Shown here piece after piece: positions 5,618-37,470 of a stretch of DNA of 38,608 bases (its first letter is position 1; each line of letters begins with the position of its first letter). The stretch is from positions 1 to 38,608 of the IMG/VR virus record IMGVR_UViG_3300037264_005791, one strand, 5' to 3'. Source of the stretch: a virus. The translations under genes were made by a program, and so were the position numbers. The notes under the pieces are model-generated. The model saw nothing but the letters and a program-made list of their open reading frames with translations. It did not search any database and was not told the DNA's origin.

Positions 5618-5634
5618 AGTAACTCCTTAAACAA

Positions 5635-5672
5635 GCTGGACTCCAAGCGTAACTAATACGCTGGAGTCCAGC
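5635..5672 (-). terminator. Intergenic hairpin, probable terminator
   Basis: Left arm 5635-5650 and right arm 5658-5672 pair over 15 bp with one bulged A and a 7-base loop. On the minus strand the hairpin follows the stop at 5688 and is followed by TTGTTT, a weak U-tract. It would end or attenuate transcription between the 5688-6104 gene and the helicase gene. Confidence 0.6.
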
Positions 5673-5687
5673 AAGCCCTAAGACGGA

Positions 5688-6104
5688 TTATTTCGTGTGA
5701 GTTTTTTGGGCATCTTTAATTTCAAACATTTCCGTGCTGGGGGAGCCAAAGAATATAGACGCTGGATTCCACGACGGAAAAGTTCTGACTGTAATCCTGT
5801 TTTGTTTGAAATGATATAAAAGATGCTCTGCCAAAGCAAACATAAACTCTTTCACTTGCTCTGGCTTGTTTGAGCTATTTGGGTAACAAATCCCCGATAT
5901 ATCCCAACCATCTTCACGATAACCCTTCATCACGAATGTAACATGGTCAGTTATCTTTACTGGCATCGCCAATGGATGCGTTTTTTGAAACTCGCCAATC
6001 ACATCCATCACTTGTTCTTTGGTAAAAGAGGGGCCGTGATACCCCTCTCTACTACCGATAGCAAACTTGACTTCAAAAGTTTGAGAAGTTTTTATTTCAT
6101 GCAT
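5688..6104 (-). CDS. Hypothetical protein
   Basis: The preferred start is ATG 6104, which overlaps the upstream stop in ATGCATGA; the longer version would run deep into the upstream gene. The 138-residue product (MHEIKTSQTFEVKFAIGSRE...) appears to be an alpha/beta protein with segments such as HVTFVMKGYREDGWDISGIC and EFMFALAEHLLYHFKQNRIT. I do not recognise the family. It lies in a series of small minus-strand genes between the amidoligase and the helicase and is bounded downstream by a hairpin. Confidence 0.6.
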   Translation of the reverse strand: MHEIKTSQTFEVKFAIGSREGYHGPSFTKEQVMDVIGEFQKTHPLAMPVKITDHVTFVMKGYREDGWDISGICYPNSSNKPEQVKEFMFALAEHLLYHFKQNRITVRTFPSWNPASIFFGSPSTEMFEIKDAQKTHTK

Positions 6105-7291: not shown

Positions 7292-8275
7292 TTAGGTAGA
7301 ATAAATTTTATTATAAACCGCATCTTTATAAGATGTTGGATATAATGACTGTTTTAAGTCAAAACCAGGAAATAAACTCAATAATTCCCCAATTTGTTTC
7401 TTGGTTATCATTCTAGCTTCTTTAAAAAATCCATCAAGACAACTAATAGTATTGTAATATAACCTACCTAGAAACCAATTCCTTATTTGCACCATTCCTT
7501 GGGAAAGATCATCCCTTAAAAATCCCAAAAACTCAAATACATCCTTAACATCTAACCAAGCTAAATTATCTGGCGACCTCTGCTTTGCCGTTTCAAGAAA
7601 GTGGATTAATAACCTTGTCCAATTCTTAACAAAAAATGAATTCTTACACAATGTATGCTCCCCAATTCTAAATTCAATCGTGTTTCGTTCTCCCGCCCAC
7701 AAGTGGTAAGTATTCACGCTGTTATATTTTGTGACACCCAATGCCTCTATAAGCCTTGTTGTAGTGATAGGGTATACGTCGTCTACCCAATCCCACAAAC
7801 CTATGGGTTGACAATAACGATTATTCTTGCGACTATCAGGCACACTATCAAAAAATACAGGTTCACACTTTATCCACCACCGCAGAATATTACCAATCTC
7901 TTCTTCTGCCAAATCATTAACGTCTATATGCAAGTGATACGAACAATTAGAATCAGCAGATATGCGGGAATGATATTGAAAAACATCAATGACCTGGCAT
8001 ACTTTCTTTAAGCCATACCAACCCTGAAATACAGGGGAACAAACTTCCATCCCACAACTATTATCTGGTTTAAGCACCCAATAGCCATGAGTCTTATACC
8101 AATGTGTGTGTTGATAAGCCCTTACTTCTACATATTCCCCAAGAGTCTCCGCTACGAGATTGGCCACATAATGAATGCCATCGGGCAGAATGTCCCTTGT
8201 AGTCATGTTTACGCCATCAAAAGCGTTGATTTCAATTTCTGCTCCAGCAGGACGACAATATAAAAAATTAAACAT
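7292..8275 (-). CDS. Amidoligase-like enzyme
   Basis: This 327-residue protein fits the putative amidoligase family, a glutamine-synthetase/COOH-NH2-ligase fold that forms amide bonds using ATP. Visible features are the N-terminal GAEIEI strand, LKPDNSCGMEVCSPVFQG (acidic metal/ATP site), a histidine-rich SYHLHIDVND strand, and the late block ERNTIEFRIGEHTLC. Such proteins occur in phages and mobile elements and are proposed to modify peptides, cell-wall peptides or nucleotides; the substrate here is unknown. A TATAAT-like element (TATATAATG on the minus strand near 8307-8299) lies upstream, divergent from the 8335 gene. The family call is good, the substrate is open. Confidence 0.75.
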   Translation of the reverse strand: MFNFLYCRPAGAEIEINAFDGVNMTTRDILPDGIHYVANLVAETLGEYVEVRAYQHTHWYKTHGYWVLKPDNSCGMEVCSPVFQGWYGLKKVCQVIDVFQYHSRISADSNCSYHLHIDVNDLAEEEIGNILRWWIKCEPVFFDSVPDSRKNNRYCQPIGLWDWVDDVYPITTTRLIEALGVTKYNSVNTYHLWAGERNTIEFRIGEHTLCKNSFFVKNWTRLLIHFLETAKQRSPDNLAWLDVKDVFEFLGFLRDDLSQGMVQIRNWFLGRLYYNTISCLDGFFKEARMITKKQIGELLSLFPGFDLKQSLYPTSYKDAVYNKIYST

Positions 8276-8842: not shown

Positions 8843-9997
8843 TTATGCATAATCATCCGCTTCATCTTTCGCTTCAATCTCTTCGTTCTCTTCATTCTCA
8901 CTTTGACCAATAGCTGAACCAAAGATTGCAACATAATCTCTTAATTCCTGTTCGTCTTTAGCATCAACCAAGGCAGGACATTTGTAGAGAGTGTCGGCGT
9001 CTATATCATTACGAGCTTTAGAAGCCCTGAATTTAATATCCTGGCCACCAGCCCACGGCTCCATAACCTGATAACTACCCTGACCAGCCTTTTCAATTCG
9101 ACTAGACTGAATTAAAGCTGTTAGTAGTCCACTCAATGGATTTACGCCATCTTTCCAAAACAATTGGACACCCTCTGCTTCAAGGAAAGGTGCTGTGCAA
9201 CGGTTCTTGACATTCCTTACTTTCAAGTTAATGCCCATCGCCGTACCTAACTTTTTATTTTCAATCTTCTTCTGAACCGCCGTACAAACACGAAGACTTG
9301 CGTAAAACTTCAAAGACTCACCACCACCACCTGAAATAATTGGGTTGCCATACATTACACCAATTTTCAATCTTGTCTGATTGAGAATAAGTAGCGTGCA
9401 ATTAGTCTTTTCCAACAAGGTATTTAACTTCCTAAATTCCTTGCTACAAATTCGTGCCCGAACACCTGGCTGATCCTTCTTGTCAGGATTCCAGTCCCTT
9501 TGCGTTTCTGCTATTTCGTCGCTGCTTGGAGAAGCAGACAGGCTATCATAGACAAACACCAATGGTGTCTCAGGGTCTTTCTCACGAAGATTTCGAATTG
9601 TAGAATAAATCTTATCGAAACAACCTTCTAAAGAATCTACGCCATTCGAAGGATCGAAGACGAGAACTTTATCAAGGTCGATGTGACTTGTTTTAACAAT
9701 CCATTCATTATTAAGGGAATTTTCACAGTCCAAATAAACGGGGATACCGCCAATAGCTTGACAACCTCTTACAACATTACAGCCCCAATATGTCTTACCT
9801 GAACCCTCTGCACCATAAAATTCCGTGATACGACCACCTGGAATACCACCGCCCATGAATTTGCCACTACATGTCCAGTTAAAGGCTAAATTTCCAGTGT
9901 CGATGAAATATTTCACGGGAGTTGTACTGCTTAATACCTCTGCTTTAGTCACTTTCGCAAGGAAATTAAAAATATCGTCATTCTTCTTTTTTGCCAT
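8843..9997 (-). CDS. uvsX: UvsX/RecA-like recombinase
   Basis: This 384-residue strand-exchange recombinase loads on single-stranded DNA and drives recombination-dependent replication. Seen: Walker A GAEGSGKT (62-69), the catalytic-strand segment PVYLDCENSLNNEW, Walker B-like LVFVYDSLSA, and the DNA-binding loop region around LILNQTRLKIGVMYGNPIIS followed by GGGGES. The C-terminus is highly acidic (ENEENEEIEAKDEADDYA), as in RecA and UvsX. ATG 9997 is chosen because GAGGAA lies 8 bases upstream; earlier in-frame ATGs lack a site. It is separated from the SSB gene by a hairpin, so the two may be expressed at different levels. Confidence 0.92.
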   Translation of the reverse strand: MAKKKNDDIFNFLAKVTKAEVLSSTTPVKYFIDTGNLAFNWTCSGKFMGGGIPGGRITEFYGAEGSGKTYWGCNVVRGCQAIGGIPVYLDCENSLNNEWIVKTSHIDLDKVLVFDPSNGVDSLEGCFDKIYSTIRNLREKDPETPLVFVYDSLSASPSSDEIAETQRDWNPDKKDQPGVRARICSKEFRKLNTLLEKTNCTLLILNQTRLKIGVMYGNPIISGGGGESLKFYASLRVCTAVQKKIENKKLGTAMGINLKVRNVKNRCTAPFLEAEGVQLFWKDGVNPLSGLLTALIQSSRIEKAGQGSYQVMEPWAGGQDIKFRASKARNDIDADTLYKCPALVDAKDEQELRDYVAIFGSAIGQSENEENEEIEAKDEADDYA

Positions 9998-17217: not shown

Positions 17218-18783
17218 TTATCCCACCCTTTCTCCATCAGAAGGTTCAAATTTTGTTCCTTTGACACTGATCTTGTCAATCACTGTCTCCGTGCGGTCAG
17301 TGTCATTATCCCTAGTTTCCGTCATTTCGGCCATGTAAGTATGGTAACTGATCTCCTCCATTTTCAAGGTCTGATCCTTGAAATGATACCTAATTTTAAA
17401 GTCAAAACGACTTCTACCGTCTCTAGTCTTAGCAATAAACCCACGACCTACATTCGCTTTTTCTTCTTGTTTAATTCTGTTCAATGTTAGGAAGAAATCA
17501 AAAACTCGGTCCTGTTTGAAAGCATCGGCCTGATTGCTTTCGTCCATGAATTCTTCAAGCGTTAATTCCGTGGCCGATTTATTCGGGTGTAAGGCCATTA
17601 GAGAACAATGCTTCTCTTCCACACCAAAACCACGAATACTTTGTAACAAATAGAACCTAGCATCCCAAGGTGAAATACCAGCCTGCACCTTCATGTCGCC
17701 TGGATAATCATAAACCATCAAATCTGGCTTGAATCCAAGCATGACAGCTTGTGCATAATAAGCACGCACTGTTGACATATCCGCACTGCCAGATGGAAAC
17801 TGTTTGATAATTAACCTTCGCTTATCTTCATAATCACCAACCGTATTCTTCAATGCTGCCCAAACCTCTTCTTTACGCAGCATTAACTGATGCTGGCCAA
17901 TGTTACTAAGCATCGCGTCAAACCGACTTGCGATGCGGTCTTGATCCATTTCAGTTGATAGATACAGCACCTTCTTGCCCCTGGCAACATTCAATCCAGA
18001 AACCCATGTGAGCCACAAAGACTTGCCACCACCGCTTTTTGCCATTACCGCACCAAGCTCACCTCTACGCAAACCACCACCAACCAGAGCAGCATCCGCC
18101 GACCTAAATCCCATTGTAAATGTTTCTTGATAGGCTTCCTCATGTTGAATCCTGGCATATCTGTCTTCGGTTGTTTCAAAATAATTAAGACCCATATCGA
18201 AATTGCGATTGACCAGACGAGCTTCCTTATACAAATAGTCAATTTTATCCCAAGTCTCATCAGATTCAGGGTTCTTTCGCATTAACTCAATAGACTTGGC
18301 AAACGCAGCTTTAGTAGCTTGGGTCTTAGCGAAGGCGGCTATACGATCCAAAATTGCATCAGTGGAGTCCAGCATAGGAAACATGTTCCCTATACCACCC
18401 TTGTTATAATAATCGTATAGAAGATTAATTTCAGTGGAATAAAGGAGCTTAATTGCTCGGTAACTATCGTCCTGATTTGGATATCGCTTTTTCAGAAAGT
18501 CATCCATCAATTCTTTGACGAATATCTTGCTGGGCGGCTGTTTGTATTCATCGAAATACTTGAACAACACCCTGCATACGTTCTGATGAACTTCGCTCCT
18601 GAAGTAGATAGGCTTAATTAAGGTGACACTCTGACAAAGGAAGAATCGGTTGCAGAGCAGCGTGCCCAACAACATCCGAAGGAATTCATCGTTATAAGGA
18701 TACTTGGGTTCTTCTACTGACTTGCTTGGATCGACCAGGGAATCTAAAACTATTTGATCTTGTTCGTTGAGTTTATTTTCCAT
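17218..18783 (-). CDS. DnaB/gp41-like replicative helicase
   Basis: This 521-residue hexameric helicase drives the phage fork. The RecA-like C-terminal domain has Walker A AKSGGGKS (248-255), the next strand KKVLYLSTEMDQDRIASRF, and Walker B DLMVYDYPGD. The N-terminal 200 residues are helical, as in DnaB. Its start (ATG 18783) overlaps the stop of the VWA membrane protein gene (TAATG), so helicase translation is coupled to the Bat-like operon. A longer start exists but lies wholly inside the upstream gene. Confidence 0.9.
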   Translation of the reverse strand: MENKLNEQDQIVLDSLVDPSKSVEEPKYPYNDEFLRMLLGTLLCNRFFLCQSVTLIKPIYFRSEVHQNVCRVLFKYFDEYKQPPSKIFVKELMDDFLKKRYPNQDDSYRAIKLLYSTEINLLYDYYNKGGIGNMFPMLDSTDAILDRIAAFAKTQATKAAFAKSIELMRKNPESDETWDKIDYLYKEARLVNRNFDMGLNYFETTEDRYARIQHEEAYQETFTMGFRSADAALVGGGLRRGELGAVMAKSGGGKSLWLTWVSGLNVARGKKVLYLSTEMDQDRIASRFDAMLSNIGQHQLMLRKEEVWAALKNTVGDYEDKRRLIIKQFPSGSADMSTVRAYYAQAVMLGFKPDLMVYDYPGDMKVQAGISPWDARFYLLQSIRGFGVEEKHCSLMALHPNKSATELTLEEFMDESNQADAFKQDRVFDFFLTLNRIKQEEKANVGRGFIAKTRDGRSRFDFKIRYHFKDQTLKMEEISYHTYMAEMTETRDNDTDRTETVIDKISVKGTKFEPSDGERVG

Positions 18784-19811
18784 TACCACACCTTGTTTAA
18801 TAACAGACACAGCATTAAGAGGCAAACTGTAACAGAAAATAAATAGGGTTGCAAATACAATTTTTCTAACTTAGTTTTTTCAGAAACTAACTTTCTATTC
18901 TCTTTAATAACCTTGTCCAAATCAGAAGATAAAGCCGTAGAAGCATTTAGACTATAATAAGTTCCATTTCCATTATCCGCAATTTGTTTCAAAATTTCTT
19001 CATCCAATTGCGACGTTGCAATTTGATTGTTGTTGTCAGTAATATAACGAACAAAGCCACCCTTACTGTCCCGCACAATCAAGGGTGCGGCTTTGCCACT
19101 ACCAACGCCTACTGTATAAATCTTGAAATTCTTGGAAGACAACTCCCGTGTTATCTGGAGGAGTTTGATCCTATTTGTTGCCAGCGCCTCTTCTTTGCCA
19201 CCATCTGAGAGCAATATTACAATGTTGAGGCCCGACTTGTCAATTTTATCTTTCTTAATGTAAATATTTTGTATCGCTTCCATCGCCTTAGTCAAATCCG
19301 TGCCCAACGTTGGTGCAGACCGCCAATCCAATTCATCCAACGCACCAAAAAACGAAAGCTTCGTCCTGGTAAAAGGACAGAAATATGGATTCACGTCACC
19401 AGCAAATGGTAGAATCGAACATTCGTAAATACCATCCAATGACGTGTAAAAATCCCTGATTTGCTTGCGAGTAGCCTCCAAACGATTTGGGGGAACATCT
19501 TCCGCATAAACCATCGAACGAGATACATCGACCACAAAAATAATACGAATGTTTGAATACTCTTTATCCTTCGCAGAAATATAAACATATGGCTCCGCAA
19601 ACGCCACCATACAAGCAGTGATAGCAACAAAATAAGCCACATAGACAAATATCCTACGCCGCCAGGCTGGAATGTTGCTATAAGCCAAGAAGTCATTAAG
19701 GTCTGGAACTTCATTAAGCTTTCTTAATACTGTTATTGCCCATATTAAGGAACCTAATATGGGCAATAACAGTATTAAGAACCAAAATGCGATGGGTCTA
19801 TCAAAGTGCAT
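18783..19811 (-). CDS. VWA membrane protein, BatB/BatA-like
   Basis: This 342-residue protein has two N-terminal membrane segments (about residues 8-29 and 54-72), an extracytoplasmic or cytoplasmic von Willebrand A domain, and a C-terminal membrane segment (about 322-340). The metal-binding MIDAS is complete: DVSRS (95-99), Thr171 in GTDL, and Asp203 in LLSDGG. This is the BatA/BatB layout of MoxR-linked complexes. Codons 11-31 form a perfect inverted repeat in the DNA (19721-19781). It begins two bases after the TPR-like gene and ends in TAATG with the helicase gene. In Bat systems such proteins support envelope integrity or complex assembly. Confidence 0.85.
   Translation of the reverse strand: MHFDRPIAFWFLILLLPILGSLIWAITVLRKLNEVPDLNDFLAYSNIPAWRRRIFVYVAYFVAITACMVAFAEPYVYISAKDKEYSNIRIIFVVDVSRSMVYAEDVPPNRLEATRKQIRDFYTSLDGIYECSILPFAGDVNPYFCPFTRTKLSFFGALDELDWRSAPTLGTDLTKAMEAIQNIYIKKDKIDKSGLNIVILLSDGGKEEALATNRIKLLQITRELSSKNFKIYTVGVGSGKAAPLIVRDSKGGFVRYITDNNNQIATSQLDEEILKQIADNGNGTYYSLNASTALSSDLDKVIKENRKLVSEKTKLEKLYLQPYLFSVTVCLLMLCLLLNKVW
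19721..19781. repeat. Perfect 27-bp inverted repeat inside VWA gene
   Basis: Left arm 19721-19747 (ttcttaatactgttattgcc and 7 more bases) and right arm 19755-19781 are exact reverse complements around a 7-base spacer (aggaacc). It codes for residues 11-31, the first membrane segment, of the VWA protein, about 30 bases after its start codon. In the mRNA it would make a very stable hairpin, near enough to the start to influence translation or attract RNase III. Confidence 0.95.
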
Positions 19812-19813
19812 GA

Positions 19814-20614
19814 TTAATTACCAGTTGATCTACCAACACCATACTTCTTACTACTCAACGCCTGCTTCTTTCTTGCCTGCGGATCATTTGCATTAGCGAG
19901 TAAACTGCTCTGATTCTTAATCAGAATCTCAATATTAACAACTGTGTTAACATCTCTATTCCTGCTGCGGAGAGCATACTTGTAGTAAGTTAATGTCTGA
20001 TTAAATAACTCTTGAGCAGAGTCGGGGTCAGCCATCAACTCCAAAATACGATAATATATCTCGCCTTTAAGATAATTCATATGGTAATCAAAATTAGGAT
20101 TACCAATGTCCTTTAGCTTCTCTGCTTCTTTCCTTGCCTTCTCATATAACACCATAGCCTTATTCAAATTAACTAAAGTTAATGGGTGTAACTCCCGCTG
20201 AGGCGGTGGAATTTGCTCTGGTTGATGGTCGGGATTCTCTGGATCAGGTTCAGGTGGCGGTAGCGGCCCCTGATTTGGAACCGCTACCGCATTCTCAATT
20301 TCAATTGCCTTCCGCAAGTGGTCTTCCGCTTCGTTAAACAAAAATGCCGCTCTCTTAAATGTAATGGTCGGCGTAATTCGCTCCTGATATTCCTTCGGCA
20401 ATTCCTGCATCGCAACTTCAGCCTTAGCCAAATCCGCATTCGACTTAGCACTATTGACCATGCCACGAACCCTGTTTTCTAAAAGCTGCTCGTCATAGGC
20501 TTGATTGATTTTTAAAGTCATATAATCATCATCATCTTTTTCCATGTTGGAAAAATAATGAACAGAAAATACACCAACCACAACAAACATCAAGCCAATT
20601 ACTAACTTTTTCAT
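19814..20614 (-). CDS. Membrane-anchored TPR-like protein, BatC-like
   Basis: ATG 20614 follows GAGG and lies one base after the upstream stop. The 266-residue product has an N-terminal signal anchor (MKKLVIGLMFVVVGVFSVHY), a helical region, a proline-rich linker (GPLPPPEPDPENPDHQPEQI), and helices resembling tetratricopeptide repeats (LVNLNKAMVLYEKARKEAEK, then YLKGEIYYRILELMADPDSA and FNQTLTYYKYALRSRNRDVN). In Bat operons a TPR protein (BatC) commonly sits beside the VWA pair, so the context supports this role. No enzymatic motif. Confidence 0.75.
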   Translation of the reverse strand: MKKLVIGLMFVVVGVFSVHYFSNMEKDDDDYMTLKINQAYDEQLLENRVRGMVNSAKSNADLAKAEVAMQELPKEYQERITPTITFKRAAFLFNEAEDHLRKAIEIENAVAVPNQGPLPPPEPDPENPDHQPEQIPPPQRELHPLTLVNLNKAMVLYEKARKEAEKLKDIGNPNFDYHMNYLKGEIYYRILELMADPDSAQELFNQTLTYYKYALRSRNRDVNTVVNIEILIKNQSSLLANANDPQARKKQALSSKKYGVGRSTGN

Positions 20615-20615
20615 A

Positions 20616-21671
20616 TTAAACCTCTGTAAAATTAAGTTGGATGGTCGTATGGATGAGGAACCCAACCAATATAAACCAAAGTCCAATGCCACCAAATATC
20701 TCGGACAAAGAGTGATCCACACTCTGCTCTTTAACAACGTATTCGTTGGCTTGACTTACCACAATCTCATTGTAAATATCTTCCAATCGCTTCTTGCCAA
20801 ATTCCTTGATAACATCTCCCCGACCACCCGTTTCTTTACAGAACTTAACCAATTGTTGATCCAATTCATAGATAGAGATAAAATAGACTCGAATGCCTAT
20901 CATCTTACAAAAGTCAATAATCTTATAGGATGACATCTTCCTTTGATTGCCGTGGGCATTAAAAACACCATCCGTAAAGATTATAATAGAACTGCCAACA
21001 AACTTATCCTTATTAACCACAATAGACTTAATGAAATCGTCAGGCTTCATTTGTGTTTCTTGACCATAGAACTTAAACTGTAGTTTGGTTAGATCGTCCT
21101 GATTAATGGCATCATTGTGCGAGAGTAACATTTCCACACCAGCCCATAAACCAGCCTCAATATCCGTGCCTTGAGCTAATGGTTGTAATCTATAATCAAT
21201 GCGCTTTAATTTTTGCTGAACAAATCGTGGATCGTCAGTCAATCCAGATATCGTAAAAGCATCATTAGAAAAAACAACCGCACCGACCAAATCCTTGCTA
21301 CCATCCTCACGATTACCCAGGAATTCAAAAAGCTTATCATTACCAGATATTAACGCTGTTAATTGCTCGCCAATACCATTTTCCTTGCGATTATCAACCA
21401 TAGAACCACTACCATCGTTAACCAGAACATACTTGTGAACTTGGTAGACTTTGATCTTTTCCGTCGCACTAAAAACAAAATTGGCGGCGGCAAGTGTAAT
21501 GAAGAAAGCCCCAAACAACATGAAATACTGCCACTTGAGATAAGTCTTCACTGTTCGGCCACGCAAGTTCTCAAGACAAGCATGACGGAAATAAAACTTA
21601 ACCCTGTTTCTGAAATAGAAGTAAACAGGGAAAAGCAGCAGCAATAGTAACAGGTATGGATTCTGGATCAT
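20616..21671 (-). CDS. VWA membrane protein, BatA-like
   Basis: This 351-residue protein has two N-terminal membrane helices (about 5-20 and 49-68), a VWA domain with MIDAS DGSGS (86-90), Thr169 in GTDIEAG and Asp234 in IFTDG, and a C-terminal membrane helix (about 325-345). The first motif is preceded by Asn where many have Asp or Val, with the chelating residues intact. It starts inside the BatD-like stop (ATGA). Two VWA proteins in one operon match BatA plus BatB. Sequence similarity between the two is low apart from motifs, so they are not a recent duplication. Confidence 0.85.
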   Translation of the reverse strand: MIQNPYLLLLLLLFPVYFYFRNRVKFYFRHACLENLRGRTVKTYLKWQYFMLFGAFFITLAAANFVFSATEKIKVYQVHKYVLVNDGSGSMVDNRKENGIGEQLTALISGNDKLFEFLGNREDGSKDLVGAVVFSNDAFTISGLTDDPRFVQQKLKRIDYRLQPLAQGTDIEAGLWAGVEMLLSHNDAINQDDLTKLQFKFYGQETQMKPDDFIKSIVVNKDKFVGSSIIIFTDGVFNAHGNQRKMSSYKIIDFCKMIGIRVYFISIYELDQQLVKFCKETGGRGDVIKEFGKKRLEDIYNEIVVSQANEYVVKEQSVDHSLSEIFGGIGLWFILVGFLIHTTIQLNFTEV

Positions 21672-23086
21672 CGGTATTTACGATCTTTGCAGAAGGTCTT
21701 CACAAAGTCCCTAAGACTCTCAGGGTTCAACGGAACACTAGGCTGATACATCTTATCCAATTCATCTATCAAATACTTAAAACTGTTGGTACAGTGCGGA
21801 AGGTCTACCGAGTATAAAGATACTCCAAACACAACAGTCATTAAATGATTCAAATTGCTTGATACCAACTTGTAGTAAGCATAATGGGTATCAGCATCAC
21901 AATTCTTCAAATCCTTCCACAGTTGCTCAACTTCATCTTCTGTTAGCCAACGTGATACAGACTTCTTCAAAGACACCAGCGCCCCACCCAAGAACATAGC
22001 CGCCATACTGAAACATATGAAACTAATACCAAGCTTGATATATGAATACAAAACTTTGTTCGGATTCTCCGTCTTAGGGAATCCGACTGGACGTAGAAGA
22101 AGCAAATCTAAACCATCGTTAGTGCGGGGCTGAATATCATCCACATCAGTCCCAGCAATAACACTACGAATACCATACTGGTAAGTATTCGTCTTAATGG
22201 TATACAACTCGCCACCTTTTTCATAGGTCACAAGTATTGGCTGAAAAACAAAGGTGCCATACTGTAACTGTCTGAAACGAAAACTCACTATGACTGTCTT
22301 TCCCTTAGTTGTCTTTACTTCCGTTATCTCTGGCGGCGACGAATCAAACCAAACTTCTCCAGCGAATGGGAATGGGAGTAAACTCTGACCAAGCTGCGGA
22401 AGAAGATCAGTCCGAACATTTACATCAGTGCTAAATACGTCGATAGTCACCTTGAAGTTGCGTAGCTCACCAAGATCACTAATAGCTGGCGTTTCCACAG
22501 AAACGTTAGCTTTTACAAAGCCGTCTATTGGTATCCACGCCACCATAGCGGTCTTAGTCCAAAAAGTATCCTTGGCGATAAGGTTGGCTAAAACCATAAC
22601 GTTAGCTGGATTCTTCAAACCCTCCACTTTAAGCAAATAAAATTTAGACTTTAGTTCGCGGAGACTAAACTTAGCGTCAGCAACCTTGTTCAACCTTTTC
22701 AGAAAATCTTCTTGGGTCACACTTGGATGCACCTGCACCAATATTTCATTTGTTACCGCACATTCAATGCCGTTGAATATTATGACAGGATAAGCAGGAT
22801 ATTTACCCACACACTTATTCAACGCTGTAAGCGTATCCACCTTGTTGTTAAAAAACAACAACAACCCATCAAGGTCACTTGTGCGAATATCCTTAAAATG
22901 TTCTAGGGGCAGCTTGTCGGCAAATTTAAGAAACTCTTCCTTATCCTTGGGTTTTGAAAGGTCAACATATATCTTGTTGACCATAGGCAATCCCCTGGAC
23001 TGAAGATTTTCGTCATAATAATGGAAGTCTTCCGCCCTATAAGACGGCAGTAGCATAGCGGCGAGAAGCAACATAGTGTTCATCAT
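21668..23086 (-). CDS. Exported single-span membrane protein, BatD-like by position
   Basis: This 472-residue protein starts at TAATG shared with the DUF58 gene stop; a second ATG follows directly. It has a signal peptide (MMNTMLLLAAMLLPSYRA), a large extracytoplasmic part of beta-sandwich character (FKVTIDVFSTDVNVRTDLLP, TVIVSFRFRQLQYGTFVFQP), one membrane helix at about 345-372 and a 100-residue cytoplasmic tail. That is the BatD architecture (oxygen-tolerance family), though sequence identity could not be judged. Ends in ATGA with the VWA gene. Role as periplasmic arm of the complex is inferred. Confidence 0.65.
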   Translation of the reverse strand: MMNTMLLLAAMLLPSYRAEDFHYYDENLQSRGLPMVNKIYVDLSKPKDKEEFLKFADKLPLEHFKDIRTSDLDGLLLFFNNKVDTLTALNKCVGKYPAYPVIIFNGIECAVTNEILVQVHPSVTQEDFLKRLNKVADAKFSLRELKSKFYLLKVEGLKNPANVMVLANLIAKDTFWTKTAMVAWIPIDGFVKANVSVETPAISDLGELRNFKVTIDVFSTDVNVRTDLLPQLGQSLLPFPFAGEVWFDSSPPEITEVKTTKGKTVIVSFRFRQLQYGTFVFQPILVTYEKGGELYTIKTNTYQYGIRSVIAGTDVDDIQPRTNDGLDLLLLRPVGFPKTENPNKVLYSYIKLGISFICFSMAAMFLGGALVSLKKSVSRWLTEDEVEQLWKDLKNCDADTHYAYYKLVSSNLNHLMTVVFGVSLYSVDLPHCTNSFKYLIDELDKMYQPSVPLNPESLRDFVKTFCKDRKYR

Positions 23087-23916
23087 TAAGACCTCATTAG
23101 GTGCTTTATAAGCGGTAAAAGAAACTGTTCCTGTTTTACATCTAGGAAAACAGCATCACTATTACAGTGAAGAAGTTTCTTCTTTAATTCTAATCTCCAA
23201 TAATCAAAGTCAGATTTTGCCGACTCTGCACTGCAACTCTGCACTTCTCCTGTCTCTGCATCCCTAAAAGTTATGTTCAATGGCTGTTTCAGGGACATTA
23301 GCCAATCAACAGGGCTATACAAAACCACATTCAAGAAGGTGTTGGTGGGAACCAAAGCCATTTTTTTGATATTGTTTAATATCGAATCTTTCAAAGGATA
23401 ACAAAAATCAGAAATAAAAACAATCATGGAATTCGTCAAAGATAGACTGGAAACCTTCCTGATGCCATCCTCTACCCCTGTTTTCTTCTCCATCTTCAAT
23501 TCATTAAGCGATTTCTCAATCAGCCCAACAACCGAAGAATAATCATCAGTTACATCCGTCGTGGTCATCACATGGTCTGAAAACAAACACATCCCAACCC
23601 GCTCATTGCATATGTCGCCAAGATAGCACAGGTAAAGGGCGGTAATGATAGCGGCATCCAACTTCGAGTATTGGGACGAGCTTATATCTAAGATGATAAA
23701 TAAATTCAAGGAACGTTCAGGGTTAAATACCCTGGACATAGTTTTACCAGTCTTTAAACTGGATTTACTATCCAGCCGCTTATCGCCAGGCTGATATTCA
23801 CGGACCACATCCACTTCAATTAGACTGTCTTTAAGTAGTGTGTTGTGAAGACCAGAGGAAAAAGCGTCCAGATATTTCTTAGCATTAAATTCAAGTGCGC
23901 GAAATCGCTTTTTCAT
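23086..23916 (-). CDS. DUF58 protein with VWA-like fold
   Basis: This 276-residue protein shows the DUF58 signature REYQPGDKRLDSKSSLKTGK (39-58), then LFIILDISSSQYSKLDAAI with a DxSxS MIDAS (77-81), and a later strand MIVFISDFCYP. DUF58 proteins accompany MoxR ATPases and are thought to be their cytosolic partner. ATG 23916 overlaps the upstream stop (ATGA); the longer version runs backward into that gene. No membrane segment. Its place between MoxR and the VWA membrane proteins is the standard bacterial order. Confidence 0.88.
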   Translation of the reverse strand: MKKRFRALEFNAKKYLDAFSSGLHNTLLKDSLIEVDVVREYQPGDKRLDSKSSLKTGKTMSRVFNPERSLNLFIILDISSSQYSKLDAAIITALYLCYLGDICNERVGMCLFSDHVMTTTDVTDDYSSVVGLIEKSLNELKMEKKTGVEDGIRKVSSLSLTNSMIVFISDFCYPLKDSILNNIKKMALVPTNTFLNVVLYSPVDWLMSLKQPLNITFRDAETGEVQSCSAESAKSDFDYWRLELKKKLLHCNSDAVFLDVKQEQFLLPLIKHLMRS

Positions 23917-24122
23917 GTTATTTCTCTGCGTGTCGGTCCCCACGGATACTTCATTTCTGCGAAAACATCTACTTTGACCACTTTACCATCAACACGCATA
24001 GATTTCCAATCATCGGGACTATCCATAAGTTCCGCAGCTTCTAATACATTGGTGCGAAAATCCCAACTGCTACACCAAACGTAATAAGCCCCATCGTCAT
24101 ATTTCCATGCATATTTAATCAC
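23913..24122 (-). CDS. Small protein within the Bat-like operon
   Basis: This 69-residue, Trp- and Tyr-rich protein (MIKYAWKYDDGAYYVWCSSW...) starts with GTG overlapping the MoxR stop (GTGA) and ends overlapping the DUF58 ATG (ATGA). Coupling at both ends makes it a real gene. I know no counterpart in bacterial Bat operons, so it may be phage-specific. Confidence 0.65.
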   Translation of the reverse strand: MIKYAWKYDDGAYYVWCSSWDFRTNVLEAAELMDSPDDWKSMRVDGKVVKVDVFAEMKYPWGPTRREIT

Positions 24123-26197
24123 AGTCCAACCTTATTCAATGCCTGGTTAATTAGATTATCAACTAATTGTGTTTCACTCTGATACTTGCCAGGGAGTGAA
24201 GAAAGCAATAAATGAAGCGCAGAATCGGCTACAATAAGTCTAACCCTGAAAACATCCGCAGCAACTGCCACAACGTCATACGGCGTTACATAGTCCCGCT
24301 GCTGCATAATCGCTTCCATCATCGCCGCACCTTCTAGGTGGAGCATGGAACGATCATTCATAGCTGGCTTCTGTTTAAACAATGGGTCAGTCCCTATAAC
24401 TTCCCGCTCATCCTTAAACATACCTAAATCTTCTGGATGGTTTATAGAATGAATTAGTCTTGCACAATAGCGCCTTGTCTCGTCGCTAACATACACCTTA
24501 TCGAAAAGTTGTTCTCTAGATTCACAAACTAAGACATTATTTACGATTGATTTCATACCCGATAGATCGAAATTGTGAGTTCGTTTCGCAATTTCAATTT
24601 TCTCATCTTCTGTAGTCTCCCGCATAACCAACTTAAACATGAAGCGGTCAGCAAGAGCTTCCTGAATACGGCTAGTCCCCTTCTGCTCAGTTGGGTTCTG
24701 AGTTGCTAGGCAAAAGAATGGTTGTGCTAATTTGTAAGTTTCATTGGCAATCGTTACAGAACCTTCAGCCAACGCTTCGATGAAAGCATTTTGTGCTTTA
24801 GGAGGAAATCTATTGATTTCGTCAGCTAGCAAGACGTTACAGAATAATGGACCCTGGACCGTCTTGGTATTGCCTGTAAGAAGAATAATTTCGCAGCCTG
24901 TGATATCACTGGCAAGTGCATCAGGCATACCACTAACACGCTTGTTATTGCCTGCTAATAGTCGGGCTAACAACTTACAAAGGACGGTATTGTGAGTTAC
25001 TGTAAAATCACCTAATAAGAAAAGCCTATCAGGACCAGAAATTTCAAACCCAAAATATTCACCTTTCCCCACAGATGTTACTTTAATTCCAGAAACCAAC
25101 ACATCTTTTTTCTGTTTCCTTTTACTGGCTTTCTTTCTCTTGATTTTGACTGGAATAATTGAGGTGTCTCCAGAAATAAAAAACCTATAATACTGACCTT
25201 TTACACCATTATTTACACAAGTTTTTTCACAAGGTTTAATGTAAGCTGCAAATCCCAAAGACCTAGCTATAAAAACTAAATCCTCGGCCAACCTTTTATT
25301 TTTCAATACACAATCATAGCCATTGCAAGTGAAATGACCATCTGTATCCATCATCCCAGCTAAAACTTGCAGTCTAACTTCTCTTGTGTTAAATTTGTAA
25401 ATATTCGGAACGTGTTTATTCATTAAAATGTTTAATGATCTCAATTTGTTAAGAATTGAATTACTGCTTCCTTTATTTGTGCTTAATGCATAATTAGGAC
25501 ACTTATTTTTATATTTCTTTTCAACAAACCTTAACCTATAATCACTGGCAACTTTTGCACAATATTTAATTATAGCATCATCAGTATTACATACTTCTGG
25601 ATGTCTTGATATGCCATCCCCTAACCAGACACCCAAGAAGTAAGAATCCAGAGGAACTTTCTTCTTATCAAAATCTACGCCAACTCTATAAGTTTTGGCA
25701 CGATGTTTAAATGTTTTATTACTATTGAGATAATCTTTGACAGATATGTTAACTATTTTTCTTTGTTCACCTTTATATTTTGGAGTTATCTTAAGAGACA
25801 AAATATGCTCAGAATTAACAACATAGGATTCGCCTTTCACGGGCGAAACATCATACATTTCATCAAACCCATGCCCAAGAGAAATTACTTTCCTTGACTT
25901 GGAATCTGGTCCCATTAAAAGGTCGCCCACTTTCACATCTTCTACATTCTTAATGCTACCATCGAACATTAGTACAGGAGTGCCTTTTGCCAAACACTTT
26001 CCAGTGCCTGTTCCGCCTTCGCAAAGGACGTGTCCCGTGCCCAAAAACCTTGAGCCATCAGGATAAAAGTCACGCTGGCCTACGGCAAAAAGAGCCATAA
26101 CAACACGATTAATAACATGTCGTTGGCCCACGATGACTGACTCTATAGAGTCTCTTAACGGGAAGATATACTGATTAAGCAAATTATCAAATTTCAT
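24119..26197 (-). CDS. MoxR-type AAA+ ATPase, intein-containing precursor
   Basis: The 692-residue precursor holds a 336-residue intein inside a 356-residue MoxR ATPase. Extein motifs: Walker A GGTGTGK/T split by the intein after Lys67, Walker B LLADEINRFPPKAQNAFIEA, and sensor 1 CLATQNPTEQKGTSRIQEAL ADRF, all near-textbook MoxR. MoxR proteins are chaperone-like ATPases that act with VWA partners to mature protein complexes. ATG 26197 overlaps the Nudix stop (ATGA). The product can bind ATP properly only after protein splicing, so splicing may gate activity of the whole Bat-like complex. Confidence 0.92.
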   Translation of the reverse strand: MKFDNLLNQYIFPLRDSIESVIVGQRHVINRVVMALFAVGQRDFYPDGSRFLGTGHVLCEGGTGTGKCLAKGTPVLMFDGSIKNVEDVKVGDLLMGPDSKSRKVISLGHGFDEMYDVSPVKGESYVVNSEHILSLKITPKYKGEQRKIVNISVKDYLNSNKTFKHRAKTYRVGVDFDKKKVPLDSYFLGVWLGDGISRHPEVCNTDDAIIKYCAKVASDYRLRFVEKKYKNKCPNYALSTNKGSSNSILNKLRSLNILMNKHVPNIYKFNTREVRLQVLAGMMDTDGHFTCNGYDCVLKNKRLAEDLVFIARSLGFAAYIKPCEKTCVNNGVKGQYYRFFISGDTSIIPVKIKRKKASKRKQKKDVLVSGIKVTSVGKGEYFGFEISGPDRLFLLGDFTVTHNTVLCKLLARLLAGNNKRVSGMPDALASDITGCEIILLTGNTKTVQGPLFCNVLLADEINRFPPKAQNAFIEALAEGSVTIANETYKLAQPFFCLATQNPTEQKGTSRIQEALADRFMFKLVMRETTEDEKIEIAKRTHNFDLSGMKSIVNNVLVCESREQLFDKVYVSDETRRYCARLIHSINHPEDLGMFKDEREVIGTDPLFKQKPAMNDRSMLHLEGAAMMEAIMQQRDYVTPYDVVAVAADVFRVRLIVADSALHLLLSSLPGKYQSETQLVDNLINQALNKVGL
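24989..25996 (-). mobile_element. Intein with LAGLIDADG homing endonuclease
   Basis: The intein starts with Cys1 (CLAKGTPVLMFDG, block A) at 25996 and ends with ...FTVTHN at 24989, followed by Thr+1. The block B-like VNSEHILSL is present. Two dodecapeptide endonuclease motifs are visible, YFLGVWLGDGIS and VLAGMMDTDGHF, so it encodes a full DOD homing endonuclease. It sits exactly in the P-loop (GK|T), a favoured conserved site. All key splicing residues (Cys1, His and Asn at the end, Thr+1) are intact, so it is probably active. Confidence 0.95.
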
Positions 26198-26763
26198 TCT
26201 TCTTCCTCCAGCCATGCATAATGGCCAACAGAATTAAGTGTCACCCTAATCGGATTTTCTTCCATGCCTTTGAAAACCAACATCACTGTATGATAAGCTT
26301 TTTTTCGCCAATTACCATCCAAATCCTGAATTACCCAATCTTTAACACCACGATCCATAAGTGGAATTATCAGACGTAGGTTCGGCATCAAATTCGGCAA
26401 TTTCAATAAATCTGGCATCGGATACCATTTGATTTCTTCAGTCTCTTCAGGTCCAGGCTTTAACTCCTGACGCTGACAAATTGGCACACGAACACAGTGA
26501 ATAATCGAATGACCACCATTGATAACACCTAAATACTCAGGCGGGCAGTAACACATTGGATCATAGTCGGAAACCTGTTCCAAACCAGTTTCTTCAAAAA
26601 GTTCTCTTACGGCAGCATCCACAGGACTTTCGCCTGGATTAAGCTTGCCGCCTGGTAGATTAAGCATTCCTGCTAAGTGTGGCGGCTTGTTTTTCAAAAC
26701 CAATGGTAAACGAGTGTTTGGACCTTCAACAATAGATGGATAAACTACAACGTATTCAATCAT
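26194..26763 (-). CDS. Nudix hydrolase
   Basis: This 189-residue protein has a full Nudix box, GGKLNPGESPVDAAVRELFE ETGLE (about 38-62), with all the metal-binding Glu residues and Gly. It hydrolyses nucleoside diphosphates linked to another group. Candidates are oxidised dNTPs, ADP-ribose or NAD-type compounds, and mRNA caps; sequence alone does not decide. The stop overlaps the MoxR start. An uncommon C-terminal extension (LNSVGHYAWLEEEE) follows the fold. Confidence 0.88.
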   Translation of the reverse strand: MIEYVVVYPSIVEGPNTRLPLVLKNKPPHLAGMLNLPGGKLNPGESPVDAAVRELFEETGLEQVSDYDPMCYCPPEYLGVINGGHSIIHCVRVPICQRQELKPGPEETEEIKWYPMPDLLKLPNLMPNLRLIIPLMDRGVKDWVIQDLDGNWRKKAYHTVMLVFKGMEENPIRVTLNSVGHYAWLEEEE

Positions 26764-26778
26764 ATTATACTCGATTTT

Positions 26779-27339
26779 TCATTGTTCCGAGCCTAAGTAA
26801 TCAAAATCCGATAAACTAGCGATACCAGTCCGAATAGATTTTTCTTTGGTGATCTTCCTACCCAAACTCTTTTGAGCGTTCCAGGCAATTGCTTTGCAAT
26901 AAGTGGAAAACTTATTGTCTATTTTGAGCGGTGAGTCTTTCTTGGGTCTTTCACGCAACGGAACGAACTTTTTAACAATGCGATACAAAAGTTCTTCCTG
27001 GTAAGCGCCATATTTCTGTCTGTTTGCACCATGCCTGGTTCTATTTCGCCACAGATTCTCTAGACCTTCGACCAACTTGAATATGAATATATCCTTTACA
27101 TGTTTTTTCGCAACCTCAAAACACTGTTCAATGTAGACTTGTCGCTTGTAATAGGAGCCTGCCCTTATCAGGGACATAACTAACTCTTGGTTTATGTCCT
27201 CAAAATCATCGGTGTGGTTGTTTTTGGCGTTTTTACGGAGAAGCTGCCATGATGCATACTTAGTTAATTGTCCGAACGCCTTTTCTAAATCCATATACTC
27301 TTCGTTACTAATTGGAAAACTAGCGGTTATGTTCTGCAT
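26779..27339 (-). CDS. Possible sigma-factor-like late transcription protein
   Basis: This 186-residue, mostly helical protein contains DDFEDINQELVMSLIRAGSY, which resembles sigma-70 region 2.1-2.2 (the D-L-x-Q-E-x-x-x-x-L-I-R-A pattern), and later KFSTYCKAIAWNAQKSLGRK, which resembles regions 2.3-2.4 (KFSTYA...). That suggests a phage sigma factor similar in role to T4 gp55. The spacing between the two blocks is longer than usual, so it may be a divergent or expanded version. It lies just after the polymerase genes. A phage promoter set of TATATATA boxes in this window would fit. Confidence 0.5.
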   Translation of the reverse strand: MQNITASFPISNEEYMDLEKAFGQLTKYASWQLLRKNAKNNHTDDFEDINQELVMSLIRAGSYYKRQVYIEQCFEVAKKHVKDIFIFKLVEGLENLWRNRTRHGANRQKYGAYQEELLYRIVKKFVPLRERPKKDSPLKIDNKFSTYCKAIAWNAQKSLGRKITKEKSIRTGIASLSDFDYLGSEQ

Positions 27340-27391: not shown

Positions 27392-28681
27392 TCAAGCTAA
27401 AGTCTTTGATATTTTACAGTTAGTTCTTAGCTTCAACCCTGGAAGTAAGACGCTCTCCCCTTCCAGAGCCTTCATGCAAATCATACGCACCATTTCTAAC
27501 TGTTTATCCGCAGCACAAACAACATACCCGTCATGAATATGAGCCACTAATCTTCCATAATCCTGCAACTCATTATGCAGGCATACTAACTTTTCCAAGC
27601 AGAATATAGCACCTGGAGACTGAATGATGAAATTCCTATACTTGTATTCTTCGCCTTCTGCAAAACATCGCTTACGCCCAACATAATCAACGTAACATCT
27701 GCCTTCCGCTGGATATCCCTCAACCCAAGCAAATAACTTGGGGAAAATACCCTTCAGGCGGTTTATCAATTTCTCAGCAGTGTCGATTTCAATATTTGCC
27801 CGCTCCGCGAGAGTCTTGGCGGATTGTCCATAAACCACAGGTAGAAACAAACAATTCTTGCAAAAAGCCCTTTTACTATACATATCACATTCCTCATCAA
27901 ACAACTGTGTGTATAATTTATTATAGAAATCACCTTCACCCAATACCAAATCAAGCAAAACATCATCCTGGCTAAGCCATGCCATGATACAAACTTCGTG
28001 AAAATAGTAATCAAAAGACAGAAAACTCAGACCAACCCCTTTAGGCTGTAGGTTTACCTTCTCTTTATCTGAAAGGGAATGTGGATTAAAACAGCTATGA
28101 TAAGCCATCTGCGTCGATAATCTACCGCCAGTTTGCCCCTCGATTTCGTAATAAGGAAATAGAATTTGTCTTTTTTTAGTATCAAAAACACCTTCTACTT
28201 CGATACCAGGGACTACTTTGGACAGCAGCGGTAAATAGACCTTCTGATGGATTGATTTAAACTTGGACCATGATGAATCAGCGAACAATCGCCTGAGACG
28301 ATTGACTACTTCTGAAAATTTAGCAGGACACTTCTCCCTGATGCCTACAAAACATTCCCCTAATTTCAAATCTAGCAACTTGCTCTCATATTCCAAACCG
28401 TCGCCAGTCTGTGCCAGGATATAAGTAAATAGGTTCTTTAGGTTCCAACCTATAATAGAGATTTTCTTATCTTCAAAAAAAGCGGTCTTAACCAAGGATA
28501 GCATTTCAATTATATTGTCTTTGTTAATCTCGATTTCAATTTCATGGGACTTGGACCAGCAAACGATATCGAAAGAAGCATTTTGTGTAAAATCTACAAT
28601 CTCTGGCTCTAACTTTATGAAAATAGTTGGACCAGACTGGATGAGTTGATCCAGTTGTAGGGCGATTTGGATATGATTCAT
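27392..28681 (-). CDS. Family A DNA polymerase with degenerate N-terminal domain
   Basis: This 429-residue polymerase has the PolA palm and fingers: TGGRLST (184-190), motif A with Asp224 (LSFDYYFHEV), motif B R271...K275...Y284G (KRAFCKNCLFLPVVYG), and motif C HIHDGY (Asp384). The first 110 residues sit where a 3'-5' exonuclease would be, but the catalytic acidic residues are absent (DFTQNASFDIVCW replaces the D-x-E motif), so proofreading is probably lost. There is no 5' nuclease. Motif C has Gly where Glu is usual. It starts inside the stop of a second PolA-like gene (ATGA). The replicative polymerase of this phage may be this protein or the pair. Confidence 0.85.
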   Translation of the reverse strand: MNHIQIALQLDQLIQSGPTIFIKLEPEIVDFTQNASFDIVCWSKSHEIEIEINKDNIIEMLSLVKTAFFEDKKISIIGWNLKNLFTYILAQTGDGLEYESKLLDLKLGECFVGIREKCPAKFSEVVNRLRRLFADSSWSKFKSIHQKVYLPLLSKVVPGIEVEGVFDTKKRQILFPYYEIEGQTGGRLSTQMAYHSCFNPHSLSDKEKVNLQPKGVGLSFLSFDYYFHEVCIMAWLSQDDVLLDLVLGEGDFYNKLYTQLFDEECDMYSKRAFCKNCLFLPVVYGQSAKTLAERANIEIDTAEKLINRLKGIFPKLFAWVEGYPAEGRCYVDYVGRKRCFAEGEEYKYRNFIIQSPGAIFCLEKLVCLHNELQDYGRLVAHIHDGYVVCAADKQLEMVRMICMKALEGESVLLPGLKLRTNCKISKTLA

Positions 28682-29832
28682 GTAGATTCAATTCTTATCG
28701 TAGGTGACAGGCCCAACTTCTCGAACTCTTCTGACATTATCTTCTTGATTATAGGTACATTCTCTGGAGTGGTCAAGATGCTATCATGGATTGTTGCCAT
28801 AAAAGTATCCTTGTGTTCTTCCATGATTCTACGACAAATTCCACTTATCATCAGCTTCGATTCCGTTCGCTGCATCAACCATGCTAATCGCCTGTAATTT
28901 TTCCTTTTGATTTTCTTAATTTCTTCTCCTATCGTGGGGAATAACTTGCAGAACAATTTGCTTGTTCGCTTGCCAAAGAATGTCTCTCGAAAGAAGTTTT
29001 CCTTGAAGACACTGCGATCAGTTTCTCCAGCATGTTTCATCAGGTAATCGTACAAGGTGCCTTGCTCCACAAGTCTTTTGTAATTAAGGACATCTGGAGT
29101 AACATCATCAAAGTAAATCGAAAATGTACACCGTATGGAGTAGGAGAGGTGGGGAATTGAAATCAAAAGTAACAAAGGTTGAGAATTTGCAATGTCCACA
29201 TTTACGAGTTTTTGGTTCTTGTAAACCAGGTACTTTCTCAGTGTTGATCTGAGATTAGTAATGTTGGTATGGATTCTTTTGCCAAACTCATCACAATAGA
29301 GGAAGAAATCTCTATTTTTAAACTTATCTATAGCTATTTTAGCACTATTATACTCTTGCACATCTAACTTATCAATAAATTGAATTGCTTTATCGTAATC
29401 TATTTCAATTTCTTGCAGAAATCCATAAAGATGATTATGTACTTTAGTTGTCGGAAGCCTTCTGGCAGTCCATCTTTCCACATTTCGATTTACACATTTT
29501 GAAAGAAGCGATATTTCTTTATGTCTGACGAGGGAATAAGGTTCGCAAAGTTTGTAGCCGAAAGACTTTTCGTTCTTTATATAATGTCGATCACAGGCTA
29601 TAACTCCTTTTCTAACTAATATATTTACATAGTCATTATAATTTCTGACTACTAAATTCCTCATATAAATGGCTTTAAGTGGAACGTATTCTTGAGAATT
29701 TTTGTATAGAATACGTTGTTCGTAGATTAGGTTTATGATATAATGCAATCTATCCAAGTCTTTGTCATTTTGATATTCTTTGTCGATGATGTTGGAAAGG
29801 TCCAAGTTTGAAGGAATGTAAATTTTCTTCAT
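28678..29832 (-). CDS. Second PolA-like palm protein
   Basis: This 384-residue protein (from ATG 29832; a start at 29841 is possible) has a helical DNA-binding-like N-terminus (YVPLKAIYMRNLVVRNYNDY) and a divergent family A palm. Motifs seen are GKRIHTNITNLRSTLRKYL, a T/R motif equivalent; LVNVDIANSQP (motif A Asp); FKENFFRETFFGK (motif B-like Lys and Gly); ESKLMISGICRRIM; and TIHDSI (motif C Asp). The VDIxNSQP/IHDSI family occurs in plasmids and phages, where it is of uncertain function. Its stop overlaps the next polymerase gene. It may be a priming or accessory polymerase; biochemical activity is unproven. Confidence 0.7.
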   Translation of the reverse strand: MKKIYIPSNLDLSNIIDKEYQNDKDLDRLHYIINLIYEQRILYKNSQEYVPLKAIYMRNLVVRNYNDYVNILVRKGVIACDRHYIKNEKSFGYKLCEPYSLVRHKEISLLSKCVNRNVERWTARRLPTTKVHNHLYGFLQEIEIDYDKAIQFIDKLDVQEYNSAKIAIDKFKNRDFFLYCDEFGKRIHTNITNLRSTLRKYLVYKNQKLVNVDIANSQPLLLLISIPHLSYSIRCTFSIYFDDVTPDVLNYKRLVEQGTLYDYLMKHAGETDRSVFKENFFRETFFGKRTSKLFCKLFPTIGEEIKKIKRKNYRRLAWLMQRTESKLMISGICRRIMEEHKDTFMATIHDSILTTPENVPIIKKIMSEEFEKLGLSPTIRIEST

Positions 29833-29862
29833 AAATACCATTTTACCATTGATGGAGCTACG

Positions 29863-36705: not shown

Positions 36706-37470
36706 ATGTTAATAAGGATACTAACTAATTACATGTTCCTAGAATTTGTCAATCGAAAAAGAGCCAAGAAGTTCAATGAAGACTTAATCCATGCTACGGA
36801 TGGAAAGTGTGATTTGCAGCAAATTGGCAGCGAGCAGATATTCAAAATCGTCATTAATCCAAACGCCAAGAAGACAATTTGTTTTATCGCAGGAATCCAC
36901 GGAAATGAACAAGCTGGACCTTACGGGGTGCTGTCGTTCTTGGAGAGCGGGTTTCACGTTCCAAGTCACAAACGAGTTATCATTATCCCTTTGGGAAATC
37001 CTTATGGTTTTGAGAAAAATAAACGAGAAAATGCCGACAATGAAGACATTAATCGGCACTTTCTCGAAAAGGAACTAAAAGGTGAATGTAAAGTTCTATG
37101 GGATGCTCTTAAACATGAAGATATAGACTTACTCCATACCCTTCATGAAGACCCATCTACAGAAAAGTTCTATTTATATTACACCCACCACAAAGAACTT
37201 GCCAAGGACTTAGTAGAATTAGCTACAAAATACTTCGATATTCAAGTTAAAGGTGAAGCCTTATCTATAAACGAAAAACCAGGGGAAGGAGACAAAATCT
37301 ATAATGGTTTAGTACCATTGCCCCATGTAGTTCGTGGTTGCATTGAAGATAAAACACTTATCGAACGAGCTATACCGTATATTACTACGGAAAGTCCTGG
37401 CAAGGTTGATCTTAAAAAGAGAATCGAATTTAACCGAGACGCCATTAAAATGTCAATTAATCACTTTTAA
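36706..37470 (+). CDS. M14-type / aspartoacylase-like zinc hydrolase
   Basis: This 254-residue enzyme belongs to the zinc carboxypeptidase/succinylglutamate desuccinylase fold. Zinc ligands are seen in IAGIHGNEQAGPYG (the H-x-x-E motif) and the third histidine in TLHEDPSTEKFYLYY. RxxxD/N-type residues occur in NPYGFEKNKRENADNEDINR. The start could be ATG 36706 or 36733 (the latter within a run preceded by AAGGA at some distance). Such enzymes cut peptides or N-acyl amino acids; a lytic role on peptidoglycan peptides or a metabolic role are both possible. Confidence 0.75.
   Translation: MLIRILTNYMFLEFVNRKRAKKFNEDLIHATDGKCDLQQIGSEQIFKIVINPNAKKTICFIAGIHGNEQAGPYGVLSFLESGFHVPSHKRVIIIPLGNPYGFEKNKRENADNEDINRHFLEKELKGECKVLWDALKHEDIDLLHTLHEDPSTEKFYLYYTHHKELAKDLVELATKYFDIQVKGEALSINEKPGEGDKIYNGLVPLPHVVRGCIEDKTLIERAIPYITTESPGKVDLKKRIEFNRDAIKMSINHF

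Follow-up and report, generated by a model that had tools for sequence, protein, structure and literature searches.

A MoxR/Bat-type membrane gene cassette carried by large phages

Genes and junctions at the locus

The IMG/VR virus record IMGVR_UViG_3300037264_005791, analysed here over its whole length of 38,608 bases (the window), carries on its minus strand, from position 26197 down to 17218, a block of genes that corresponds to the bacterial Bat (Bacteroides aerotolerance)/MoxR membrane systems and ends in the gene for a DnaB-type replicative helicase. The order is MoxR, a 69-amino-acid (aa) open reading frame (ORF), DUF58, an exported protein here called X, a first VWA protein (VWA1), a TPR-like protein, a second VWA protein (VWA2) and DnaB. 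The features are listed below, with the metal-ion-dependent adhesion site (MIDAS) residues of both VWA proteins.

26194..26763, minus strand: Nudix hydrolase, upstream flank of the cassette (Pfam NUDIX, 6e-17)
24119..26197, minus strand: MoxR AAA+ ATPase, 356 aa without its intein (Pfam AAA_3, 2.1e-34, and AAA_lid_2)
24989..25996, minus strand: intein in MoxR, 336 aa, with both LAGLIDADG blocks (Pfam Hom_end_hint, 2.9e-19; Hom_end, 4e-6)
23913..24122, minus strand: 69-aa ORF, accessory, function unassigned, overlapping MoxR (GTGA) and DUF58 (ATGA)
23086..23916, minus strand: DUF58, soluble VWA-like protein with a DxSxS motif (Pfam DUF58, 2.6e-14)
21668..23086, minus strand: component X, no Pfam match, characterized by fold model and profile-profile comparison
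20616..21671, minus strand: VWA1, BatA-type membrane VWA protein (VWA_2, 2e-6), MIDAS D86-x-S88-x-S90 ... T169 ... D234
19814..20614, minus strand: TPR-like (BatC-type) protein with an N-terminal anchor, no significant Pfam match (Pfam TPR included)
18783..19811, minus strand: VWA2, BatB-type membrane VWA protein (VWA_2, 1.6e-11), MIDAS D95-x-S97-x-S99 ... T171 ... D203
17218..18783, minus strand: DnaB-type replicative helicase (phrog_19, 7.6e-53), a neighbour of the cassette and not a member

Profile searches confirm the AAA_3, DUF58, DnaB and both VWA assignments made in a preliminary description of this DNA, and alignment confirms an intact MIDAS for both VWA1 and VWA2, as had been proposed. 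The seven tight junctions reported there are exact in every case: GTGA between MoxR and the 69-aa ORF, ATGA between this ORF and DUF58, TAATG between DUF58 and X, ATGA between X and VWA1, gaps of +1 (VWA1/TPR) and +2 (TPR/VWA2), and TAATG between VWA2 and DnaB. The Nudix/MoxR junction is likewise ATGA. Alignment places the true starts at 26197 for MoxR, 23916 for DUF58, 20614 for the TPR gene and 18783 for DnaB.

The first two junctions hinge on the 69-aa ORF, which occurs only in the window and in its closest relative, the 341-kb contig L002 (91% identical, ratio of nonsynonymous to synonymous substitution rates, dN/dS, 0.06). DUF58 overlaps MoxR directly, with no such ORF, in the 42-kb contig L004, in L005 and in L018 (the 595-kb uncultured phage LR756511). 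The same position is occupied in the 187-kb contig L003 by a 242-aa ORF of unassigned function (8901-9629), and the MoxR/DUF58 gap is thus an accessory slot in the cassette. Elsewhere in the block, contig L010 carries a transposase-like ORF (phrog_506, 4068-5843) between VWA1 and the TPR gene.

The Walker A motif of MoxR, GGTGTGKT, is split between K and T by the intein, and the P-loop is whole once the intein is removed; Walker B reads LADEINR. Without the intein, MoxR is 69-91% identical to its counterparts in four aligned phages. The DxSxS motif of DUF58 is intact, with a single S-to-C change in the DUF58 of L005.

Counterparts in bacterial Bat operons

We compared the phage families with a cellular set made of 20 DUF58 neighbourhoods in genomes from the phylum of an Omnitrophota contig (L019), together with L019 itself and L020 (Myxococcales). 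Many of these neighbourhoods show the canonical order MoxR-DUF58-X-BatA-BatB-TPR-BatD, in which BatD has about 610 aa. In profile-profile searches, whose E-values are single comparisons, five phage components (DUF58, X, BatA, TPR/BatC and BatB) pair one to one with cellular families, and off-diagonal signal is almost nil except among the VWA domains. Phage DUF58 matches the cellular Bat-operon DUF58 (99.9%, 6e-31). VWA1 matches BatA (99.4%, 4e-21) better than BatB (2e-13), and VWA2 matches BatB (100%, 2e-41) better than BatA (4e-30). These assignments agree with matches of VWA1 to NCBIfam BatA_Lepto (1.8e-6) and of VWA2 to BatB_Lepto (4e-23) and to the solved BatB domain PDB 3ibs (1e-16). The Pfam BatA N-terminal domain was seen below the cut-off only, and in L005 only. 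MoxR is assigned to the set because of its hidden Markov model matches (about 1e-50 to 1e-58) and because these fall at the expected position of the cellular operon.

The TPR-like protein, described earlier as BatC-like, does pair with the cellular TPR protein encoded after BatB (93%, 3.5e-7). Its AlphaFold model is all helical with alpha-alpha repeats (pLDDT 83) and gives weak TPR-type PDB matches, the best fold-search E-value being 0.12.

The exported protein X, by contrast, is not the BatD-like protein of the preliminary description. It matches the cellular DUF4381-type protein encoded between DUF58 and BatA (97%, 1e-10) and reaches 1.3% against BatD; the phage X profile also picks the cellular gene at the same operon position in four genomes (1e-5 to 1e-7), and Pfam DUF4381 itself gave no match to phage X. 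On these profile comparisons, we assign X as the counterpart of the DUF4381-type component and reject BatD. The earlier label is understandable, since Bacteroides bf2420, which lies beside two BatA genes (bf2419 and bf2418), was counted as a second BatD domain (PMC5700661). BatD (PF13584) had no match in the six phage records searched, including those of 341, 436 and 595 kb, and calling the set complete was therefore too strong.

Hydropathy analysis finds MoxR and DUF58 soluble, one transmembrane (TM) segment in X (348-368) behind a hydrophobic N-terminus, one N-terminal anchor in the TPR protein and three TM segments in VWA2; VWA1 has two above threshold and a third, N-terminal one by eye. 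VWA1 has a positive loop between its first two helices, and placing this loop inside puts the VWA domain outside the cytosol, in agreement with the topology measured for the BatA-type protein BB0173, in which the VWA domain is on the periplasmic side (PMC5700661). AlphaFold models X with an alpha/beta region and an immunoglobulin (Ig)-like sandwich, then a TM helix followed by a bundle of helices (pLDDT 72, pTM 0.43), and the fold search returned no more than partial matches of low TM-score, Ig-like (TRAP) and RRM-like. Four of the six proteins are thus predicted to be membrane-bound or exported, with the VWA domains outside the cytosol. Neither VWA1 nor VWA2 contains a peptidase domain in Pfam and NCBIfam family searches.

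Phage origin, mobility and the DnaB neighbour

Replication genes surround the block in the window, namely UvsX, UvsW-type and Dda-type helicases, SSB, a dNMP kinase and a family A polymerase. The same neighbourhood, with cassette order and flanking phage genes kept beside DnaB, is found in L002, L003, L004 and L018, and the order is kept in part in the truncated contigs L006, L010, L011, L017 and L096. The 341-, 436- and 595-kb records each contain a gp23-type (T4-type) major capsid gene, of a family that matched none of the 14 control genomes; terminase matches are weaker. The guanine-cytosine (GC) content of the cassette equals that of its own genome (39.6% and 39.6% in the window, 48.8% against 48-51% in the 436-kb phage), and there are no N runs. 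Bat operons are mostly bacterial and the window is merely a 38.6-kb fragment, so that a chimeric assembly, or host DNA taken for phage, had to be considered. This explanation is refuted by at least four other contigs that were assembled independently and show the same arrangement; capsid genes are present in two of these (341 and 595 kb). The matching GC also speaks against it, as does the closest cellular DUF58 found, which is only about 26% identical (strict motif scan), and we give it next to no credence. The set is real phage DNA, carried by several tailed phages of very large genome size.

The genes are also maintained. Compared with the closest relatives, MoxR, DUF58, VWA1, TPR, VWA2 and DnaB have dN/dS ratios of 0.03-0.12, which are rough as dS exceeds 1 and is often saturated; X, the fastest evolving of the set, has saturated or very high dS. 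The set is under purifying selection. In a tree of MoxR, DUF58, BatA and BatB, all phages form one clade (support 100) on a stem of 2.4 substitutions per site, relative to a cellular sample consisting of the group of L019 and of L020 only. This tree and the DnaB tree both group the 436-kb phage with L010 and L004, with several low inner supports. The simplest reading is one old acquisition followed by vertical descent and one relocation, in either direction.

The relocation concerns the 436-kb phage (L102), in which DnaB lies at 48 kb of the contig and the Bat genes at about 195-205 kb, a separation of about 145 kb. Around its DnaB we find PolA, g26779, Nudix, DnaB and g16654, which is the window order minus the Bat genes; Nudix and DnaB are likewise adjacent, with no cassette between them, in two further contigs (L103 and L104). 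The distance depends on one assembled contig, whereas the empty Nudix-DnaB site does not. The order MoxR-DUF58-X-BatA-TPR-BatB is the same at both locations. The six genes are a self-contained cassette, which in one clade lies next to DnaB.

The preliminary description had read the tight junctions as a fixed coupling to the replisome, with a membrane anchor or fixed-ratio partner of replication as its lead idea. In the clade of the window, a coupling of translational type links the cassette to DnaB, and the two are adjacent in most members; both observations speak for such a role. Because the cassette is self-contained and the coupling is not fixed, however, we consider a replisome partner very improbable; moreover, no nucleic-acid-binding domain was found in the cassette proteins apart from the endonuclease of the intein. 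The empty sites in L102, L103 and L104, together with the 145-kb separation, rule out the helicase coupling as the key to function.

The intein, which had gone unreported, sits exactly behind GTGTGK of the P-loop, begins with C, ends with HN and is followed by T. It is absent from the closer relatives L002, L003 and L004, and the 436-kb phage has a 61%-identical intein at the same site, from which we conclude that it probably moved horizontally. Its GC content (33%, against 43% for the rest of MoxR) is in line with mobility. In a related phage, the DnaB of L101 (3-2573) has a 363-aa intein in its own P-loop, AAGTGKS, here between K and S, and 46% identical to the MoxR intein. Judging from these similarities, one intein family appears to occupy the P-loops of two different ATPases in the same phage group.

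Several other features of the window deserve mention. The C-terminal half of a family A polymerase (429 aa) is overlapped, within 27392-29841, by a protein of 387 aa that matches nothing in Pfam or PHROG and is conserved together with the polymerase in L002, L003 and L018; this is possibly a split or unusual polymerase. One of the best-conserved proteins of the region (L002, 96%; L003 and L004, about 70%) is encoded at 26779-27339; it has 186 aa and likewise no match in Pfam or PHROG. Amidoligase-like and zinc-carboxypeptidase-like genes (7292-8275 and 36706-37470) lie in the phage replication region. The T4-type late promoter TATAAATA had 1 match against 3 expected, and sigma-70-like sites were at chance level (36 found, 41 expected); because neither exceeds expectation, a promoter map cannot be drawn.

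Proposed function and comparison with known systems

We lean, with modest conviction, towards a phage-borne inner-membrane MoxR/Bat chaperone machine that acts on the envelope of the infected cell. The six proteins likely form one complex. In the cytosol would be DUF58 and MoxR, for which a hexamer is expected; X would span the membrane, with its Ig-like domain outside and its helical domain inside; BatA and BatB would present their MIDAS-bearing VWA domains in the periplasm, and the TPR protein would be anchored with its repeats outside. ATP cycles of MoxR could then be relayed through DUF58 and X, so that the periplasmic VWA/TPR scaffold opens and closes on client proteins. The client and the benefit to the phage are matters of guesswork; most likely, the phage would maintain or remodel the host envelope in this way during a long infection, an option that we favour because it best fits the predicted location.

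The same location would suit superinfection exclusion or defence, in which the VWA/TPR scaffold blocks or disturbs the entry of other phages. Huge phages go through long cycles and have rivals to contend with, but genes for exclusion are usually small, stand alone and are patchily distributed, whereas this is a conserved, slowly evolving six-gene set with no sign of diversifying selection and with the same gene order in distant phages. We find this role quite unlikely. A role in virion assembly, with the machine maturing or remodelling phage structural proteins, perhaps at membrane-bound proheads, also seems unlikely to us, even if it has precedents: it was proposed for the group 2.2 jumbo phages, which pair MoxR with a metallopeptidase-vWA protein, and has been reported for the tail of the archaeal Acidianus two-tailed virus (ATV) (PMC7824862), and a MoxR pair is annotated in phage 0305phi8-36 as well (PMC2147016). 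All of these are two-gene pairs, the present cassette lies among replication genes and not structural genes, and its mostly membrane-bound or exported proteins place their VWA domains outside the cytosol, where heads and tails of tailed phages are not built.

Other points weigh against the envelope machine itself. Cellular Bat function is unsettled, and deletion mutants of Leptospira biflexa showed no phenotype in growth or under oxidative stress (PMC3557215); moreover, lacking BatD, the phage machine may work differently. We offer only tentatively the wider idea that phages domesticated a BatD-less Bat machine as a movable, lineage-conserved cassette that rebuilds or takes over the host inner membrane and periplasm, its motor perhaps also gated by P-loop intein splicing in some members.

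The preliminary description knew of no phage system of this form, and in the literature searched, subscription journals and supplements being outside reach, we came across no account of a phage with a six-gene Bat set; the main text of a survey of huge phages has no mention of MoxR or VWA (PMC7162821). The nearest viral cases share a MoxR with a linked or VWA partner. In group 2.2 jumbo phages, the MoxR is paired with a peptidase-vWA protein and has been compared to the ATV chaperone for tail assembly (PMC7824862); these pairs have two genes, the phage vWA is fused to a peptidase, and no DUF58, X, TPR or paired membrane VWA proteins are described. The pair of Bacillus phage 0305phi8-36 (PMC2147016) consists of two subunits only, encoded nearby, and is not a Bat-type membrane set. 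In Escherichia coli, RavA-ViaA also joins a MoxR ATPase to a VWA cofactor and works at the inner membrane (PMC9489729), but ViaA, a VWA protein associated with the membrane, lacks membrane partners of Bat type.

The closest likeness is to the bacterial MoxR-DUF58-BatA-BatB operon, which shares with the phage set MoxR, DUF58, the DUF4381-type X, BatA, BatB and TPR, contiguous and in one direction, as well as domain order and predicted topology. The phage set differs in having no BatD, in the place of its TPR gene, which lies between BatA and BatB and not, as in bacteria, behind BatB, in an extra N-terminal alpha/beta region of X, and in being phage-carried and very divergent in sequence. It is a known kind of bacterial machine, here reduced, reordered and placed in a new setting. 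Bat systems are widespread in bacteria, and a phage lineage that keeps six genes under strong selection without BatD points to a minimal working core, compact enough for reconstitution. A six-gene envelope machine is thus a conserved part of huge-phage genomes, for which the earlier reports we found describe MoxR-VWA pairs only, and may let these phages service or remodel the host envelope during infection.

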